Assembly: GCA_945873085.1 (NCBI GenBank)
Contig: CAMCCR010000006.1
Coordinates: forward strand, 1 to 43,550
Reading direction: 5' to 3'
DNA: 43,550 bases
DNA from: Candidatus Kuenenia stuttgartensis
GTDB taxonomy: Bacteria; Planctomycetota; Planctomycetia; Pirellulales; UBA1268
Shown here: one piece after another, positions 5,180 to 15,198 of the stretch
Position numbering within the stretch: position 1 is the stretch's first letter
Layout of the letters: every line of letters begins with the position of its first letter
Notes under the pieces: generated by a model
Told to the model about the DNA's origin: nothing
Seen by the model: the letters and a program-made list of their open reading frames with translations, nothing else
The model's database searches: none
Translations under genes and position numbers: made by a program

Positions 5180-6205
5180 TCAGAACAGCCTCGCCTGCCC
5201 AGTTCCCCCCGGGGAACCGCCGAGATGCTCCTCCCCCCGGGGGGTGAGCTTGCGGCCCCGCGGGGTGCGGACGACGAGTTCGCAGCGGAGGAGGAAGGGC
5301 TCCACATCGTCTTCGAGGGTGTCGGGGGCACTGCTCATGGTGTGGGCGATCGCCTCGATCCCCACCGGCCCGCCACCGAACACCCGCTGGATCGTCTCGA
5401 GGTAGCGGCGGTCGAAGCTGTCGAGGCCGAGCGCGTCGATCCCCTGCATGTTGAGAGCAGTGCGGGCGATGGCCAGATCGAGCGTTCCCTCCGCCCGGCT
5501 CGTGGAATAGTCGCGGATCCAGCGGAGCCGGTTGTTCGCCAGGCGCGGCGTTCCCCGACTGCGGACCGCGATCTCGTCGGCCGTGGCGTCGTCCATCGGC
5601 ATCGAGAGTTTCGCGGCCGAACGACGGACGATCTCCGCAAGATCCTCCGGGGGATAGAAGTCGAGGTGCTCGCGCATCTGGAAGCGGTCGCGCAAGGGGG
5701 CCGAGAGGAGCCCGGGGCGGGTCGTCGCGCCCACGAGCGTGAAGGGGCGCAGCGGCATGTTGATCGTCCGTGCGGCCACGCCATCACCGAGCGTGATGTC
5801 GATGCGGAAGTCCTCCATCGCCGGATAGAGGAACTCCTCGACGGCGATCGGGAGACGGTGGATCTCGTCGATGAACAGCACCGTTCCCTCGGCGGCGTTG
5901 CTGAGATAGGGCAGGAGGTCCTTGGGCGCCGCCAGCGCCGCTCCGCTAGCGATCTGGAGCGTTGTGCCGAGCTCGCGCGGGATGCAGGTGGCAAACGTCG
6001 TCTTTCCCAGCCCCGGAGGACCGTCGAGGAGAATGTGCCCGAGCACCTCCCCCCGTTTCTGGGCGGCATCGACGGCGATCATCAGACGCTCGTAGACATC
6101 CCGCTGCCCGACCATGTCGGCCATCCGTGTCGGCCGCAGGGCGCGGTCCTCAACAGGCGTCGGTTCATCGTCGCCTCGGATCGTCGGCTCGCGGTAACTG
6201 CTCAT
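5180..6205 (-). CDS. ruvB: Holliday junction branch-migration ATPase RuvB
   Basis: This 341-residue AAA+ helicase motor drives branch migration of Holliday junctions with RuvA during recombinational repair. Motifs: Walker A GPPGLGKT (62-69), Walker B ending FIDEIH (111-116), sensor region GATTRPGLLSAPLRDRF with the arginine finger near 172-174, and a C-terminal winged helix with RGRKLTPRGEEHL. The N terminus (residues 1-20) is acidic and variable, as usual. It follows ruvA by about 98 bp on the same strand and is followed by a 158-bp gap containing the rpmF promoter. Confidence 0.98.
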   Translation of the reverse strand: MSSYREPTIRGDDEPTPVEDRALRPTRMADMVGQRDVYERLMIAVDAAQKRGEVLGHILLDGPPGLGKTTFATCIPRELGTTLQIASGAALAAPKDLLPYLSNAAEGTVLFIDEIHRLPIAVEEFLYPAMEDFRIDITLGDGVAARTINMPLRPFTLVGATTRPGLLSAPLRDRFQMREHLDFYPPEDLAEIVRRSAAKLSMPMDDATADEIAVRSRGTPRLANNRLRWIRDYSTSRAEGTLDLAIARTALNMQGIDALGLDSFDRRYLETIQRVFGGGPVGIEAIAHTMSSAPDTLEDDVEPFLLRCELVVRTPRGRKLTPRGEEHLGGSPGGTGQARLF

Positions 6206-6303
6206 CCGTCCAGTCCTCCTGGGAAGCCGTCAGCCTACCACGCGGCCGAGGGTTTGGCGGCATCGGCAGCGCATGCCCCCCGCCGACCGTTGTTGACGGA
6301 GCG

Positions 6304-6930
6304 TCAGCGCGGCTTGTGCATCGAGCGGTAAATGATCTCGAGCGCCTCCTGGACATCCTTGACCTTCTTTTTCTCGCCACGGAGCGTGTCGCAGAGGCGG
6401 CGGGCGTCGGCGTCGGAATGCCCGAGCGACCGGAGAACCTCGAAGGTTTCCGCGAGGACGTCCCCGGCGGCGGCGGCACTGGGCGTGTCGCGGGCCACCA
6501 AGAGGGCGAACTTGGGCATCCGGCGGCGGAGCTTGGCGATCATCCGCTCGGCCGTGGCCGCCCCGATTCCCGGAAGCGTGGAGAGGGCAGCGGCATCCTG
6601 CTCCTCGATCGCCCGGGCGATTTCGCCGACGGGCCGGACCATCGCCCGCAGGGCCTTGCGCACGCCAACCCCATCGACTTCGCAGATCAGGTCGAAGAAC
6701 TCCCGCTCGACCTCAGAAAGGAATCCCACCAGCCTGGGGACGAGGTTGCCGCGACCGGGGGTGCCTTCGAGGAATTCGAGGGTGTGGAGGGTGATTGACT
6801 GCCCTCCCTTGGTCTGGAGGTCACGGCGGACAAGCTCCGGCACGAGCACTTCGTGCACCACCGGCCCGATCGTCAGTTCGAGCGAGCCGACCTCGACCGC
6901 CCCGAGCGTTCCTGTGAGCCGCTTGATCAT
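6304..6930 (-). CDS. ruvA: Holliday junction DNA-binding protein RuvA
   Basis: The 208-residue product is the tetrameric junction-recognition subunit of the RuvAB machine. It has the OB-fold domain (MIKRLTGTLG onward to about 65), two helix-hairpin-helix motifs (VDGVGVRKAL near 85-94 and LPGIGAATAERMIAKL at 119-134) and the flexible linker plus C-terminal domain III (about 158-205) that contacts RuvB. Its ATG overlaps the ruvC stop in an ATGA, so the two are translationally coupled. Confidence 0.96.
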   Translation of the reverse strand: MIKRLTGTLGAVEVGSLELTIGPVVHEVLVPELVRRDLQTKGGQSITLHTLEFLEGTPGRGNLVPRLVGFLSEVEREFFDLICEVDGVGVRKALRAMVRPVGEIARAIEEQDAAALSTLPGIGAATAERMIAKLRRRMPKFALLVARDTPSAAAAGDVLAETFEVLRSLGHSDADARRLCDTLRGEKKKVKDVQEALEIIYRSMHKPR

Positions 6931-7628
6931 GCGTCATCCTCCTGCGAACCAGCGTCACCTTCGCCATCCCAGCCCCCATCCGATAACGGCGCCCCGCGCT
7001 GCCCCTTCCGGGGAGCGGCCGAGCGGCGCGGCGCGGGCTTGCCCCCCTGGCCGAGCGCCAAGCCACGCTGACGGATCCGCAGGTGCCAATCGGCCAGCGC
7101 CACGGCGAGGGCATCGGCGACGTCGGCCGGTTCGGGGCGGGCGGCAAGGGCCAGTTCCCGCTGGACGGCTGCCTGCATCTGCTCCTTGCCCGCCTGGCCG
7201 CTGCCGGTGAGGAGGCTCTTGACCCGCGTTGGGGGATAGTTGTTGACCGTCAGCCCGGCCTGAGCCGCTGCGAGGCAGATCACCCCACGCGCGTGCCCCA
7301 TGAGGATCGCGGTCCGCGGAAACTTGGCATGCACGAACACCTGCTCGATGGCCATCACCGCCGGCGTGAGGGCCTGCAGGACGTCGCGGACGCCCTCGTG
7401 GATCGTCGCCAGCCGCGTCTCGAGCGTCTCTCCGCGCGAGCGGATCGTGCCCGCCTCGACAAGCCTCACGATCCCTTCTCGGCAATCGATCACCCCGTAG
7501 CCGGTGATGTTGAGCCCGGGATCGAAGCCAACGACCCGCTGCCACGGAAGGGCGGCATCCCCGGCGCTGCCGGGCGACGACGGGCGTGGGGCAGGGGTGG
7601 CGGATGGGGCGGGCAATGGAGGCGGCAT
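6927..7628 (-). CDS. ruvC: Crossover junction endonuclease RuvC
   Basis: This RNase H-fold nuclease cuts Holliday junctions moved by RuvAB. Acidic catalytic residues are visible: Asp36 in GFDPGLNITGYG, Glu95 in AIEQVFV, and Asp169/Asp172 in ADVADALAVALAD. At 233 residues it is longer than the usual 160-190: about 30 Pro/Ala-rich residues precede the catalytic core and about 45 basic and Gly-rich residues follow it. Both extensions look disordered. An alternative start within the N-terminal extension is possible, but ATG at 7628 is the only upstream one I see. It opens the ruvC-ruvA-ruvB run. Confidence 0.95.
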   Translation of the reverse strand: MPPPLPAPSATPAPRPSSPGSAGDAALPWQRVVGFDPGLNITGYGVIDCREGIVRLVEAGTIRSRGETLETRLATIHEGVRDVLQALTPAVMAIEQVFVHAKFPRTAILMGHARGVICLAAAQAGLTVNNYPPTRVKSLLTGSGQAGKEQMQAAVQRELALAARPEPADVADALAVALADWHLRIRQRGLALGQGGKPAPRRSAAPRKGQRGAPLSDGGWDGEGDAGSQEDDA

Positions 7629-7815: not shown

Positions 7816-7844
7816 AGGATACTCCATGGCGGGCAATCAACCAA
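7816..7844 (-). promoter_or_regulatory. Promoter of the tRNA-Arg gene
   Basis: On the minus strand TTGGTT (7844-7839) and TATCCT (7821-7816) have an ideal 17-bp spacing and lie about 20 bases before the tRNA 5' end. The -35 overlaps the last codons of the long upstream gene. Confidence 0.55.
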
Positions 7845-10797
7845 GATTGCTCTTCGAGCGACGGCTTTCGCCACTACTCTGCCCCCGCGGAGGCTCGCCG
7901 GCGTGGATCACTTCCTCGGCTGTGCCCGGCGGAAACAGGAATCCGTGGTCGTCGACCAGGTACTTCCCGCTGACGGCGCACGACAGGGGCTCCCGCTCCC
8001 GGCCATCCCCCCCACCGGCGGTTCGGCGAGCCGCGGTGGCAGCCACAATCAGGGAGAAATCCGCCTTAGAAGCGCCTTCATCTTCAGAAGTGCCTCCATC
8101 TGAGGCGTCCCCGTCGAGCGGCTCGAGCCCGAGGCGGGCGCGATCAGAAGCCAGCGGCCAGACCACCACCCCCATCACCACCCTCCCGAGCGACTCCGGA
8201 CGGGAGATGATTTCGGCATCGGCTACCAACCGGGAGGGGGGAGTGTTCATCGATACCAGCCCGCCAACGGCTTCGGGGGCGAACGCCACCACCGGTTCGA
8301 TCCCATGGGCCGTGCGGAATGCCGCGGCCGCCTGGCGGGCGATCACGTTCTCGCCACCGTCGCCGATCGGGATCACGATCACGTCCGGGAGCCGACCGAC
8401 CTGCTCTGGGGGGAGGGCCGCGATCGCGGCCACCTGCCCGATCCGCGCCAACCAGATCGTGGCCCGGAGACGCTTGAGTTCCTCGAGCATCGGCACGGCC
8501 GACAGCCCGGGGTCGATCGTGGTCGCCGCAATGCCGAGCAACGGCCCGCCACAGACACCGAGATCGAGGTGGAGCGGATCGGTGGGCACAAGCGACGACA
8601 CCATCCGGTCGTCGCGGCGCACCAGACAACCGGATTCAAACGCCTCGGCCGTGGCGGCAAGCGCTGCCCAGTCTGGCAGCCGACCATCCGCCCGGGCGCC
8701 CGCACCGTGGCCGCGCACCTCGTCGAGGGCCGCTTGCAGCGGCCTGGCATCGGCCGCGTGCCGCCGCAGCCAGGCAGCGATCTCCCGCTCGGCGCTGCGG
8801 GTCGTCAGCATCCGATCACGGATGCCGTGGGTGGTGAGTTCCTGGAGGGCGAAGCGGGCGTCTCGAGGGGAACTGCCGACGGGGAGCGGCCTGCCGAACC
8901 AGACCGTCAACGGCCGCCGCCAGCCCCCGCCGACCAGCCGCGGCCACTTCCGGAAAAACCGCCCCTCCGAAAAGGAGAGGACGCTCCCCCACATCCCGTC
9001 GATGTGGACCGGCACGATCGGCGCCTCGACGCGCCCCATCACCCAATCGAGCCCGCGTTTGAAGCCGAGAATCGGGCCAGTTCGGGAAATGCCCCCCTCG
9101 GAGAAGATCCCGACCGCGTCGCCGGCGGCGAGCCCTTCCTGCACCGAACGCAGGGCCTGCGCGATCGACTTCGGCCGGGGCTCGAAAAGGATGAACCGCC
9201 ACTGGCTGGAGAGCATTCTCAGGAACCGGCCGCGGATGTTCGGCCCGTAGACGAGCATCCGCAATGGCCGGGGCGTGGAGAGGACGAGCACGAATCCGTC
9301 GAGCCAAGAGAGGTGATTGGCCACGACGACGGCCGGGCCTGCGGCGGGGAGCCGATCGGCATGCCGGACGGAATATCGCCATCCGGCATGAACGAGCGAG
9401 GCAACGAACAACCGCAGCGTGGCGCGGGGGGCGCACCAGACGGCGGCGGCCACGGCCCCGAGCGAAAGGATCGCGAAGATCGCGAAGATTGCCCGAGCGG
9501 AGAGCATCGGCGGCCCTCCCGCCACGAGCGGCGCCCGCAGCCCACCGTAGGCGAGCGATGCCAGAAACATGCCACTGAAGAGGAGGAGGTTGGTCGCCCC
9601 GAGCACCCCCCCGAGCCGATCGGGCGGGCTCTTCGCCTGGATAAAGGTCTCCAGCGGCACATCAAACATCCCCGCCCCGAAGCCGAGGACCACCAGCCAT
9701 ACGAAGGGGATCCACGCCGCCACGCCGCCGGCCTCCACGAATCGGCCACCGATGCCGGCTAGCGCCACGAACGCCACACCCATGATCAAGCCACCGAGCG
9801 GCACAAATCCGAGATCGACGCGTGGATCGGCCCCTTCCGGCCGCGCGGCGAGCTTTCCGGTCACGATACTCCCCACCCCGATGCCGGCGACGAGGGCCAC
9901 AAGCAAGGGCACGACCTGCGCCTGCGACGCCGCTCCCGCCTCGCTGGCAAACTGATCGACGTTGGCCTGAGCCACGGCGCCGATCGCCCAGAAAAACACG
10001 ATGCCCGCAGCAGCGGCAGCCAGTTCGGGCTGGCGAACGAGAAGGCTCAGGTCGGTCCACGTCCGCGCCAGAGCGTTCCAGGCGGGGGGAGCATCGGGGG
10101 CCGCGGGGGCAAGGTGCGGCATGAACCCCGCCGCTGCCAGCCCCAGCAGTGCCGTGCCCCCAAGGAGCATCCCCGTTGGCCAGGCGCGCCCCCAGGCCGA
10201 GGCGGCGTCGAGCGCCGTCGCATCGGCCACCCAGTTTCCGGCGGCAGTCCCGGCGAGGACGGCGACGAGCGAAACGAGCGAAAACAGTCCGTTGGCAGAC
10301 GAGAGTCGCGACGGCGGGACGACCTCTGGAATCACGCCGACGATCGACGGCGTCATCAGCGCCGCCTGCGTGCCAATCGCCATCACCGCCCCGAGGAGCA
10401 GCCACAAGCCTGTCGGCAGCCCCAGCCACGCCTCACCCTCCCCCATGCCGAAGCCGAGCACGAGGGTTGCCGCCACGGCGATCAACACCTCGGCCGCTTT
10501 GCACCAGCGAATCACCGCTGTCTTCGATTGCCGATCAGCAAGAGATCCGGCCAGCCACGAGAAGAGCACGTAGGGGAGCGACAGCCCGACCAATCCGATC
10601 GTGAGCACGAGGCTGACGCGCCCCTCGTCGACAAGCTTCTTCCCCAGCCCGATCGCCAGCCACTTGATGGCGTGATCGTTGACGAGCGTCAGCGCGCGGA
10701 CGACCAGCAGCGCGGCGAATCCGCCCCTCCAGAGCGAGTTCCCCGCAGCATTCGGCGGAAGTGCGGAGGGGGTGAGGCTGGGGGATGGGCTATCCAC
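7837..10797 (-). CDS. MFS (LplT-like) transporter / PlsC acyltransferase fusion with degenerate adenylation tail
   Basis: The product has about 986 residues. The N-terminal 430 or so form a major-facilitator domain like LplT, the lysophospholipid flippase, with ten or more hydrophobic segments (for example LVLTIGLVGLSLPYVLFSWLAG). Next is a PlsC-type acyltransferase with NHLSWLDGF near residue 494 (the HX4D catalytic pair) and FSEGGISR near 565. The last 300 residues resemble the second half of an acyl-ACP synthetase: LKRLRATIWLA, GIEPVVAFAPEAVGGLVSMNTPP near 850, and GKYLVDDHGFLF. The nucleotide-binding signature and the N-terminal half of that domain are missing. Known Aas-like triple fusions re-acylate imported lysophospholipids, so a membrane phospholipid repair role is likely, with acyl activation lost or supplied elsewhere. 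Start: GTG at 10797; no ATG is available before the first membrane segment, and a TTG at 10953 would add 52 implausible residues. Confidence 0.88.
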   Translation of the reverse strand: MDSPSPSLTPSALPPNAAGNSLWRGGFAALLVVRALTLVNDHAIKWLAIGLGKKLVDEGRVSLVLTIGLVGLSLPYVLFSWLAGSLADRQSKTAVIRWCKAAEVLIAVAATLVLGFGMGEGEAWLGLPTGLWLLLGAVMAIGTQAALMTPSIVGVIPEVVPPSRLSSANGLFSLVSLVAVLAGTAAGNWVADATALDAASAWGRAWPTGMLLGGTALLGLAAAGFMPHLAPAAPDAPPAWNALARTWTDLSLLVRQPELAAAAAGIVFFWAIGAVAQANVDQFASEAGAASQAQVVPLLVALVAGIGVGSIVTGKLAARPEGADPRVDLGFVPLGGLIMGVAFVALAGIGGRFVEAGGVAAWIPFVWLVVLGFGAGMFDVPLETFIQAKSPPDRLGGVLGATNLLLFSGMFLASLAYGGLRAPLVAGGPPMLSARAIFAIFAILSLGAVAAAVWCAPRATLRLFVASLVHAGWRYSVRHADRLPAAGPAVVVANHLSWLDGFVLVLSTPRPLRMLVYGPNIRGRFLRMLSSQWRFILFEPRPKSIAQALRSVQEGLAAGDAVGIFSEGGISRTGPILGFKRGLDWVMGRVEAPIVPVHIDGMWGSVLSFSEGRFFRKWPRLVGGGWRRPLTVWFGRPLPVGSSPRDARFALQELTTHGIRDRMLTTRSAEREIAAWLRRHAADARPLQAALDEVRGHGAGARADGRLPDWAALAATAEAFESGCLVRRDDRMVSSLVPTDPLHLDLGVCGGPLLGIAATTIDPGLSAVPMLEELKRLRATIWLARIGQVAAIAALPPEQVGRLPDVIVIPIGDGGENVIARQAAAAFRTAHGIEPVVAFAPEAVGGLVSMNTPPSRLVADAEIISRPESLGRVVMGVVVWPLASDRARLGLEPLDGDASDGGTSEDEGASKADFSLIVAATAARRTAGGGDGREREPLSCAVSGKYLVDDHGFLFPPGTAEEVIHAGEPPRGQSSGESRRSKSNLG

Positions 10798-11009
10798 GGT
10801 GGTTGCTCGGAGTGACAGAGGGGGGGGCCAAACGCCCCGGTCCGGGCGTTTCCGACCCCCATCAGGGCGACGATCGCAACGAGGTGTCACACCCGACCAT
10901 TCCCGGGGCCGGCGGGCGGGCGGGCCCAGGCACAATCGGCTTTTCCCCCCCAATCAATCCGAGTGTCGCGGGGGGAACAGCAGCGGACCGGCGGCAGACT
11001 ACCAAAGGT

Positions 11010-11764: not shown

Positions 11765-11821
11765 TCGCCGACGGCCCTCTTGTGAGCGATGCTGGCACGG
11801 CCTGCCCCTGCTCGGCCGCGG

Positions 11822-11830
11822 TGCTATAGT
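11822..11830 (+). promoter_or_regulatory. Extended -10 promoter of the carotenoid operon
   Basis: TGCTATAGT at 11822-11830 is an extended -10 element (TGn followed by TATAGT, 5 of 6 to consensus). No good -35 is visible 17 bp upstream, which extended -10 promoters can tolerate. The predicted start near 11837 gives a leader of about 145 bases before the ATG at 11981. Confidence 0.5.
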
Positions 11831-11832
11831 AC

Positions 11833-11870
11833 CGACGCCCGCGGGTTCGACGCCCGCGGGTTCGACGCCC
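11833..11870. repeat. 15-bp tandem repeat in the carotenoid operon leader
   Basis: CGACGCCCGCGGGTT occurs twice head to tail at 11833-11847 and 11848-11862, followed by the first 8 bases of a third copy. Each full unit contains the palindrome CCCGCGGG (11838-11845, 11853-11860). It lies immediately after the predicted -10, where a repressor or an RNA structure could act. Confidence 0.8.
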
Positions 11871-11942
11871 CAAGCGGTCGCGGCCCGATGGCTGTGGCCT
11901 GTGATGGCCCGCTGCCCCTCTGGCAGGTCGGGCAAGGCACGG

Positions 11943-11968
11943 TCGTCATGTTCGTCATGTTCGTCATG
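11943..11968. repeat. 9-bp tandem repeat carrying in-frame ATGs
   Basis: TTCGTCATG is repeated nearly three times (first copy lacks its first T). Because the unit is 9 bp, each ATG (11948, 11957, 11966) is in frame with the desaturase ATG at 11981, encoding an FVM repeat if translated. Confidence 0.8.
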
Positions 11969-11980
11969 GACAACGCTCGG

Positions 11981-13528
11981 ATGGCAAAGACAGTCAACAT
12001 CATTGGGGCGGGCCCGGGCGGACTGGGCTGCGCCATGCTGCTCGCTTCCGCTGGCGTCCGGGTGCGGATCCTCGAACGCCTTCCCTTTCCTGGCGGACGT
12101 ACGAGTACGATCTCGACCCCCGAGGGCTACCGCTTCGACCTCGGCCCGACGTTTTTCCTCTACCCGAGAGTCCTCGACGACATCTTCACCGCCTGCGGAC
12201 GCGACCTCCGGCGGGAGGTTGATCTCGTCCCGCTCGATCCCCAGTACCGGCTCGTGTTTGGCGCCGGCGGGGAACTTCTCGCCACCCCCGACATCGCGAG
12301 GATGGAGGCCGAGGTCGCCCGACTGGCGCCGGGAGATGCCGGGGCCTTCACCCGCTTCATGAACGCGACGCGGGAGAAGTTCGTCCGCTTCGCCCCGTTC
12401 TTGGAGCAGCCGTTCGAAAGCTGGCGTGATCTGGTCAACCCCGATCTGATCAAGCTCATGCCGCTGCTCAAGCCGTGGCGGAGCCTCGACGCGGAACTGG
12501 GGAGCTTCTTCAAGGACGAGCGGATCCGGCTGGCCTTCACGTTCCAGTCGAAATATCTCGGCATGTCCCCGTTCCGGTGCCCCAGCCTGTTCTCGATCCT
12601 CTCGTTCCTCGAGTACGAGCATGGGGTCTTTCATCCGATCGGCGGGTGTGGGGCCGTTTCGAATGCGATGGCGCGGATCGCCCAGGAGATGGGGGTGGAG
12701 ATCCACTACTCCGAGCCGGTTGAATCGCTCCGATTCGAGGGGCGACGGATCGCCGCCGTCCAGACGGGGAAGGATGTCTACGAGGCCGATGCCACGGTCA
12801 TCAACGCCGACTTCGCCCGCTCGATGACGCGGCTGGTGCCCGACCGACTGCGCCGTCGCTGGAGCGACCGTCGGATCGCCACGAAGCGGTTCTCCTGCTC
12901 GACGTTCATGCTCTACCTCGGCATCGAGGGACAGTACGACGTGCCCCACCACACGATCTACCTCTCGGCAAACTACCGCGACAATCTCGCCGACATCGAG
13001 ACGCGCCACGCCCTCGGGCCCGATCCGTCGATGTATGTCCAAAACGCCACCGTTACCGATCCCTCCCTCGCCCCCGCTGGCCACAGCACGCTCTATCTGC
13101 TGATTCCGGTGACCCATCGCCACCCCAACGTCGATTGGCGTCGCGAAGCCCCCCGCTATCGCGAAGTGGCCCTCGATCAACTCGAGCGGATGGGGATCCA
13201 CGGTGTCCGGGAGCGGATCCGCTACGAAAAGATGATCACGCCGGACGACTGGCAGGACGACTACGAGATCTACCGTGGGGCGACGTTCAACCTCTCGCAC
13301 GACCTCGGTCAGATGCTCCACAAGCGTCCGCACAACCGCTTCGAGGATCTCGAGGGGGTGTATCTCGTCGGCGGTGGTACCCATCCCGGGAGTGGCTTGC
13401 CGGTGATCTATTCTTCCGCCCGGATCACGAGCGATCTGCTCCTCGATGACCTCGGTCTCGAGGCCCTCCCGCCGGTGTCGCCGGTGACCCAAGGCCGTGG
13501 TCGCCCCCGGGCACCGGCCGCCGTCTAG
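11981..13528 (+). CDS. CrtI/CrtN-family carotenoid desaturase or oxidase (first of two)
   Basis: This FAD-dependent amine-oxidase-fold enzyme, 515 residues from the ATG at 11981, probably dehydrogenates a linear isoprenoid such as squalene, dehydrosqualene or phytoene at the membrane. Seen: dinucleotide motif GAGPGG (9-14), an acidic FAD-ribose residue at the end of the second strand (ILERLPFPGGRTSTI), the substrate-channel block FQSKYLGMSPFRCPSLFSIL and the C-terminal FAD motif GVYLVGGGTHPGSGLPVIYSSA, all as in bacterial carotene desaturases. Start choice is uncertain: in-frame ATGs at 11888, 11948, 11957 and 11966 precede it, none with a strong ribosome site. The pairing with a second family member, an acyltransferase and a CrtQ-like glycosyltransferase suggests CrtN/CrtP-type roles. 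Which one desaturates and which oxidises cannot be told by eye. Confidence 0.88.
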   Translation: MAKTVNIIGAGPGGLGCAMLLASAGVRVRILERLPFPGGRTSTISTPEGYRFDLGPTFFLYPRVLDDIFTACGRDLRREVDLVPLDPQYRLVFGAGGELLATPDIARMEAEVARLAPGDAGAFTRFMNATREKFVRFAPFLEQPFESWRDLVNPDLIKLMPLLKPWRSLDAELGSFFKDERIRLAFTFQSKYLGMSPFRCPSLFSILSFLEYEHGVFHPIGGCGAVSNAMARIAQEMGVEIHYSEPVESLRFEGRRIAAVQTGKDVYEADATVINADFARSMTRLVPDRLRRRWSDRRIATKRFSCSTFMLYLGIEGQYDVPHHTIYLSANYRDNLADIETRHALGPDPSMYVQNATVTDPSLAPAGHSTLYLLIPVTHRHPNVDWRREAPRYREVALDQLERMGIHGVRERIRYEKMITPDDWQDDYEIYRGATFNLSHDLGQMLHKRPHNRFEDLEGVYLVGGGTHPGSGLPVIYSSARITSDLLLDDLGLEALPPVSPVTQGRGRPRAPAAV

Positions 13529-13629: not shown

Positions 13630-15198
13630 ATGATGCAAACCGTCAAGGAACAGAATCGGGTGGTCGTGATCGGGGCTGGCCTCGGTGGCTTGGCTGCCGC
13701 GTGCACGCTGGCCGCCCGTGGCTACGCGGTGACGCTGTGCGACAAGAACCCCTGGGTCGGCGGAAAGGCCGCGATCCTTTCGGAGCAGGGTTACCGCTTC
13801 GACATGGGGCCGACGATCCTCACGATCCCGGACGTCCTCAGGCGGATCTTCGCCGAGGCCGGGCGTGATCTTGACCAAGCGCTGGACTTGGTCCGGCTCG
13901 ACCCGCAATGGCGGAGCTTCTTCACCGACGGCTCGACGCTCGATCTGTGCGCCGACGTGCCGCAGATGCAGGCGACGCTCGACCGCTACGCGCCGGGGAG
14001 CGGGGCAGGGGATGGGTACGGGCGTTTCATGGAACTCTCGAAACGTCTCCACCGCATCTCCGACGAATTCTTCTTTTGGCGACCGGTCGGCGGGCTCGCC
14101 GATATGTTCGACCCGCGGCGGAGCTTCAATGTCGGCATGCTCCGTGAGGTCATGGGGATGCGGCCGGGCCACACGGTGGCCGGCACCGTGCGGGCCCACG
14201 TTCCCGATGCCCGTGCCGCCCAGATGTTCGATCACTTCACGCAGTATGTGGGGAGCTGCCCCGAGTCGTCGCCGGCCGTCCTCTGCGGCATTGCCAACAT
14301 GCAGTCCCGCGACGGCGTCTGGTATCCGCGTGGGGGCACCGGCGCGGTGCCGAGGGCTCTGGCCTCACTCGCGGTCGATCTCGGCGTCGACATCCGCACC
14401 CGCACTGCCGTCAGCCGGATCATCGTCGAGAAGGGGAAGGTGCGGGGCGTCGTCACGGAGCAGGGGGAGACGATCCCGGCGGCCGTCGTCGTCAGCAATT
14501 CCGACAGCGTTCGCACCCACCGCGAACTCGTCGATGGCGCACCTGCCGCGAAGTTCCTCAGGCGGCGGAAGTACGAACCGGCCTGCTCGGGCGTTGTCCT
14601 CTATCTCGGCCTCGACCGCCGTTACGAACAACTCCTCCACCACAACTTCGTCTTCTCGGCCGACCCGCACGAGGAGTTCGACTTCATCTACCGCAAGGGG
14701 GAGCCGGCGCCCGATCCGACCTGCTACCTCTGCGCTCCGGCCGTCACCGAGCCCGAAGTGGCGCCGCCCGGCGGGGAGGCCCTCTACGTCCTGGTGCACA
14801 CGCCATACCTCCGTCCGCACCACGACTGGTCGAAGATGTTCGCCCCCTACCGGAAGCGGATCATCGAGAAACTCGTCTCCACTGCCGGGCTCGAAGATCT
14901 CGAGAAGCACATCGTCGTCGAGCGATTCCTCACGCCGCAGGACATCAACGACCGCTACCACGTCCTCGACGGCGCGATCTACGGGCTGGCAAGTCACGGG
15001 CGATTCCTCGGGGCGTTCAAGCCCTCAAACCGGTCCCCCGACATCGAGGGGCTCTATCTTGCCGGGGGCTCGTCCCACCCGGGGCCAGGGATGCCGATGG
15101 TGATGATGTCGGGCTGGATCGCGGCCGACACCGTCGACAAGGATCGTCTCATCGAGCCCACCGGCCCTGTGTCATCCCCGGCCCCCTGCGCGGTGTGA
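13630..15198 (+). CDS. CrtI/CrtN/CrtP-family carotenoid desaturase or oxygenase (second of two)
   Basis: A 522-residue paralogue of the preceding enzyme. It has GAGLGG (15-20), the block YRFDMGPTILTIPDVL, which is the substrate-binding signature of phytoene and diapophytoene desaturases, and the C-terminal GLYLAGGSSHPGPGMPMVMMSGWIAAD. Two adjacent ATGs (13630 and 13633) sit directly after GAGGAAGGG, so it has a strong ribosome site. The gap to the previous gene is 101 bp, and the next gene begins 19 bp on. In staphyloxanthin-type pathways one member (CrtN) desaturates and the other (CrtP) oxidises the terminal methyl, so this pair could make a diapocarotenoid aldehyde or acid. No phytoene, dehydrosqualene or squalene synthase is in the window. 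Confidence 0.9.
   Translation: MMQTVKEQNRVVVIGAGLGGLAAACTLAARGYAVTLCDKNPWVGGKAAILSEQGYRFDMGPTILTIPDVLRRIFAEAGRDLDQALDLVRLDPQWRSFFTDGSTLDLCADVPQMQATLDRYAPGSGAGDGYGRFMELSKRLHRISDEFFFWRPVGGLADMFDPRRSFNVGMLREVMGMRPGHTVAGTVRAHVPDARAAQMFDHFTQYVGSCPESSPAVLCGIANMQSRDGVWYPRGGTGAVPRALASLAVDLGVDIRTRTAVSRIIVEKGKVRGVVTEQGETIPAAVVVSNSDSVRTHRELVDGAPAAKFLRRRKYEPACSGVVLYLGLDRRYEQLLHHNFVFSADPHEEFDFIYRKGEPAPDPTCYLCAPAVTEPEVAPPGGEALYVLVHTPYLRPHHDWSKMFAPYRKRIIEKLVSTAGLEDLEKHIVVERFLTPQDINDRYHVLDGAIYGLASHGRFLGAFKPSNRSPDIEGLYLAGGSSHPGPGMPMVMMSGWIAADTVDKDRLIEPTGPVSSPAPCAV

Follow-up and report, generated by a model that had tools for sequence, protein, structure and literature searches.

A predicted flippase–acyltransferase of one planctomycete family with a conserved, non-catalytic part of an adenylating domain as its C-terminal tail

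The window (the whole stretch of 43,550 nucleotides that was analysed) encodes on its minus strand, at 7837..10797, a protein of 986 residues in which an LplT-type MFS transporter and a PlsC acyltransferase are followed by a degenerate tail, a stretch of approximately 250 residues which derives from an adenylating (ANL) domain of the Aas type. The explanation that we consider probable is that this flippase–acyltransferase carries a folded, non-catalytic ANL half-domain which was reduced in the ancestor of the family, that a separate synthetase performs the activation step, and that the tail is likely a platform for docking or regulation. The analysis established the domain architecture, the loss of the catalytic motifs, the sharing of this loss across the family, the fold of the tail, the selection that acts on it and the existence of the separate synthetase.

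The reading frame has no internal stop between a GTG at 10797 and position 7837. The same frame is open further upstream, to a TTG at 10953 (1038 residues), and the GTG start is therefore provisional. A Pfam scan of the 1038-residue frame returns MFS_1 at residues 109-465 and Acyltransferase at residues 528-651, and nothing beyond these two, so that AMP-binding is not matched. On the DNA, the transporter domain corresponds to 9439..10740 (minus strand; MFS_1, 8.9e-14, and the PRK08633 and LplT models) and the acyltransferase domain to 9001..9372 (minus strand; PF01553, 5e-17). Both PlsC motifs are intact: the catalytic motif NHLSWLD (NHX4D; 9298..9318, minus strand), read in the sequence and in a motif scan of the orthologues, and EGGIS. 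The NCBIfam model PRK08633 matches residues 72-733 of the 1038-residue frame (3.5e-128), only over model positions 4-629 of 1147, and the protein scores 429 against a cut-off of 1221. These matches bear out the original prediction that the first two domains are the LplT–PlsC part of an Aas-like triple fusion. Regarding the neighborhood, ruvC, ruvA and ruvB lie in a row downstream of the gene on the same strand (5180-7628, minus), and two adjacent genes for amine oxidoreductases (phytoene-desaturase-like, carotenoid type) lie upstream on the opposite strand (11789-13528 and 13630-15198, plus).

The tail proper (7936..8673, minus strand), delimited from hhalign, structure and conservation, is preceded by a linker (8674..8853, minus strand) which is variable in the alignment. 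Some genera keep there the sequence xADGxxxTGaDvL, which is the start of an ANL domain, and others have lost it, which indicates that the trimming differed between genera. The comparison of 32 orthologous tails with 12 complete domains by hhalign gives a probability of 98.4% (E 7.7e-15, columns 208-434 of 553); the tails of the family align from directly after the P-loop (A3) to the DxDGF that stands directly before the hinge (A8). In this alignment the A3 P-loop, the A5 TE, the A7 TGD, the A8 hinge and the A10 lysine are each missing or replaced. The phosphate-binding signature and the half that precedes it are thus absent, as had been predicted from the sequence. The tail had also been described as the second half of an adenylating domain: it is indeed an ANL remnant, but the description is incomplete, for the C-terminal small domain, the hinge GR and the A10 Lys are missing too. 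The Thr–Glu pair was thought to be replaced by AV, contrary to the alignment, which places EA there (FAPEAVGG under YGATELSP, the former A5 motif, 8260..8283, minus strand); this position is variable across the family. The ancestral stretch MNTPPSR (8230..8250, minus strand; VNxPPSR in complete enzymes) is still kept. On single tails, Pfam detects AMP-binding in only 2 of 32 (best E 0.0015), and no matches appeared when PDB sequences were searched with the profile of the tails (hmmsearch); the kinship with ANL enzymes is seen by hhalign.

The model of the tail calculated with AlphaFold2 (278 residues, 52 sequences) has a mean pLDDT of 87.7 and a pTM of 0.86. The best Foldseek matches listed for it are ANL enzymes (E from 3.9e-10), and VIA-align superimposes it on residues around 180-432 of these enzymes with Z of about 14-16.7 over 203-225 residues, typically 203-216 at 3.1-4.3 Å. 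The predicted structure therefore has the N-domain alpha/beta fold of the ANL superfamily, as a partial domain only, and this match suggests that the tail is a folded part of an ANL N-domain rather than a disordered remnant. The structural comparison that had been proposed as a check on the tail thus gives a clear answer, and together with hhalign it rules out a chance likeness.

A match to the protein was found in 59 of the 59 genomes of the relatives search, in some of them to the MFS or PlsC part only. The short tail is common to the window's own family (12 genera searched), whose genomes are mostly, by title, lake planctomycete MAGs; it is not visible in one g12 and one g9 genome (contig end, or gene not found). 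The open frames of the family mostly measure about 900-1120 residues, and the length outliers are explained by a contig end, by a frame that extends further upstream or by a frameshift. In one orthologue (G033:C6; L061, L094), the gene is split within the MFS part into frames of 256 and 818 residues by a frameshift or assembly error, and the tail is intact. When 84,980 species genomes were scanned for two motifs of the tail, 55 loci were obtained, and nearly all of these lie in MAGs whose titles name planctomycetes. The fused orthologues from other families of the order are complete triple fusions of 1180-1360 residues, whose Aas-type adenylating domain is normal (TSGSTGxPK, YGxTE, TGD, ITGR, GxGK). 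The contig of the window belongs to a fragmented MAG of 385 contigs, so that an assembly or sequencing artefact that cut a piece out of a normal triple fusion had to be considered; however, many independently assembled genomes of the family have the same truncated architecture, and since the complete fusions are found in other families, we give such an error practically no chance and regard it as excluded.

The activation pathway has not disappeared from the genome. A search with a profile of the complete domains detects a separate synthetase gene (above 600 bits) in 56 of the 60 genomes of the family, including that of the window; the four others are only 62-81% complete. In the window's genome, it encodes a protein of 575 residues (G000:C2:43051-44622), near a ThiF-family gene and glgC, which has Aas-type similarity and the full set of catalytic motifs from A3 to A10. 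It matches PRK08633 over positions 615-1143, and the window protein over 4-629, the one being a clean complement of the other. The stand-alone synthetases of the family that were read in sequence have TSGSTGDPK, YG[AS]TE, TGD, ITGR (with one exception) and G[ST]GK. Across the order, most genomes have a single strong synthetase of the Aas type, in fused or in stand-alone form, and a few have both. The survey of orthologues thus shows a truncation that is common to the family, the absence of the TSGSTG motif there too, and a separate synthetase gene. The original prediction had hesitated between an enzyme losing its activation step and a non-catalytic domain. The former wording misleads, since in the 56 genomes the step now belongs to a separate gene; the latter is better supported by a tail that is shared by the family, predicted to fold, under selection and endowed with invariant residues of its own. 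We also note in the window's genome a frame of 900 residues (L202; G000:C54:10759-12276) whose C-terminal end is an Aas-like adenylating domain of more distant relationship (about 298 bits); frames of 880-1070 residues in other genomes of the order resemble it.

The absence of stops over 300 codons had been taken as an argument for selection. This argument is weak, since the DNA is GC-rich and antisense open frames of 474 and 485 residues overlap the gene; conservation across the family and a test on codon positions are better evidence. The dN/dS values (NG86) of close within-genus pairs are 0.07-0.13 for the MFS domain, 0.07-0.15 for PlsC and 0.22-0.55 for the core of the tail, which is about 3-5 times the value of the two other domains. 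The differences in the tail core distribute over the codon positions as 43/29/78 (three separate pairs; p 3e-6 against equality). From the excess by codon position and the dN/dS values, it follows that the tail is protein-coding and under purifying selection, which is weaker than that on the remaining protein. Across 52 tails, 19 columns are invariant, and neither stops nor frameshifts occur in the tails of the orthologues aligned.

What is conserved in the tail is to a large extent different from what is conserved in the enzymes. Among the tail positions with at least 90% conservation, about half hold a residue that occurs in fewer than 20% of 72 complete domains; at about one third of them, the ancestral residue is retained. 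Where the complete enzymes are near-invariant, the tails have replaced (residue 1 of the tail being at 8673) H by D32, S by P33, F by Q80, G by A132, P by G138, P by V165, P by A212 and T by L234 (the window itself has V at 234); W74, M142 and W172 are also conserved in the tails and rare or absent in complete enzymes. Judging from the alignments, these derived residues point to a shift of constraint rather than to mere decay. They include the sites of the former A4 and A5 motifs, which suggests that a new conserved surface has formed on the face where the active site used to lie. As the residues at about half of the most conserved tail positions are absent from its catalytic relatives, the tail looks repurposed rather than decaying.

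The same observations have to be confronted with other explanations. If the tail were the leftover of a fused synthetase, eroding slowly since a stand-alone copy took over, one would understand that its dN/dS is above that of the rest of the protein, that both of its ends have already been deleted, that the N-terminal remnant persists in some genera and is gone in others, and that family f8 has a version with no tail at all (an MFS–PlsC protein, L200, which ends cleanly after PlsC in a genome with a stand-alone synthetase). But erosion does not easily account for aligned tails free of stops and frameshifts, for the invariant columns, for invariant residues which are new and specific to the family, or for the confidence of the predicted fold, and we judge it unlikely.

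The tail may also have a purely structural role, packing on PlsC for its folding and binding no partner. The fusion point behind PlsC is always the same, and the half of the ANL domain that once packed on the tail is lost, which would leave an exposed surface in need of cover; against this stands the MFS–PlsC protein of f8, which exists without a tail, and a purely structural tail seems unlikely to us. In fatty-acyl ligases, the acyl pocket is lined by a region that should lie within the segment retained in the tail. This, and the presence of the former A4 and A5 positions among the derived invariant residues, are what speaks for a sensor, in which a fatty acid, an acyl-adenylate, a nucleotide or another small molecule bound in a remodelled pocket would regulate flipping or acylation; the tail lacks the motifs for nucleotide binding (A3, A7 and A8), however, and a sensor appears equally improbable.

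How the tail and the stand-alone synthetase arose can be described only softly. The tree of the complete domains largely tracks the families, and the domains have changed several times between the fused and the stand-alone state; the stand-alone synthetases of the window's family form one clade in it. The tails also form one clade. A free tree that includes them places the tails beside one fused sequence, where long branches meet; a tree in which the tails and the stand-alone copies of the family are constrained to a single clade is not rejected (p-AU 0.925), and its likelihood is above that of the free search. We make no firm claim about the placement of the tails, as they and the stand-alone sequences are both long branches. 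The most likely scenario is that the fused domain was duplicated on the stem lineage of the family and so gave rise to the stand-alone synthetase, a scenario which these long branches make soft.

In E. coli, the lysophospholipids that LplT flips inward are re-acylated by Aas with acyl-ACP which its own synthetase domain has made and, to a lesser extent, with de novo acyl-ACP (PMC11416262, PMC13170283). LplT binds to Aas at the transferase domain, and Aas also associates with itself (PMC11416262). By analogy with this system, the window protein would transport and acylate lysophospholipids: the LplT part would carry the lysophospholipid to the inner leaflet, and PlsC would re-acylate it with acyl-ACP. 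Fatty acids would be activated by the separate, complete synthetase, and the acyl-ACP would come from this enzyme or from fatty-acid synthesis. Under the explanation that we favor, the tail would most likely be a platform, for docking or regulation, by which either acyl-ACP or the separate synthetase is kept beside PlsC. Two observations speak against this explanation: the constraint on the tail is relaxed in comparison with MFS and PlsC, and the tail-less protein of f8 shows that a tail is not generally needed once the genes are split. It is conceivable, and we propose it tentatively, that in this one family an ANL half-domain deprived of both catalytic ends has become a dedicated docking or regulatory domain which works with the relocated active synthetase.

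Within a single order, the synthetase is thus fused, separate, or separate and accompanied by a conserved non-catalytic double, which amounts to a natural experiment on fused lipid-recycling machines. It lets a non-catalytic job of the synthetase domain, such as holding acyl-ACP or a partner, be tested directly. There is also a hazard for annotation: the name "acyl-[ACP]--phospholipid O-acyltransferase", which proteins of this kind will probably receive, ascribes to them an activation step that is missing.

We observed a second type of MFS protein in families f8, f16, f18 and f20 (L197, 1027-3366, minus strand, L198, L199 and L201; also G091, G093, G101, G095, G054 and G084), and a likely relative of it in one genome of the window's family (G012). 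Its PlsC-like C-terminal part seemingly lacks NHX4D (with, for instance, TNCHETDAW, SNSHDFDHW or TNAGTLGEA in its place), and it may be that here, in parallel, a similar transporter carries another retired domain.

Fused homologues of LplT and Aas are known and are stated to be uncharacterised (PMC11416262); a truncated fusion with a conserved pseudo-synthetase tail was not found described in the open-access literature. The closest known arrangement is the LplT–Aas triple fusion of PRK08633 and PRK06814 (acyl-[ACP]--phospholipid O-acyltransferase), which has the same domain order and to which the window protein is homologous over MFS and PlsC; contrary to these fusions, its third domain lacks everything through A3 and from the A8 hinge on, and the synthetase is a separate gene. 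With the enzymes of the ANL superfamily (acyl-CoA and acyl-ACP synthetases, 4-coumarate:CoA ligase, fatty acyl-AMP ligases), the tail shares the predicted fold of residues ~180-432, and it differs from them in having no P-loop, TE pair, TGD, hinge, C-terminal domain or catalytic lysine. Like LplT and Aas of E. coli, whose transferase part contacts LplT, the window protein couples a flippase to an acyltransferase; E. coli uses two proteins and has an active acyl-ACP synthetase on Aas, whereas in the window flippase and transferase form one chain and the synthetase is separate.
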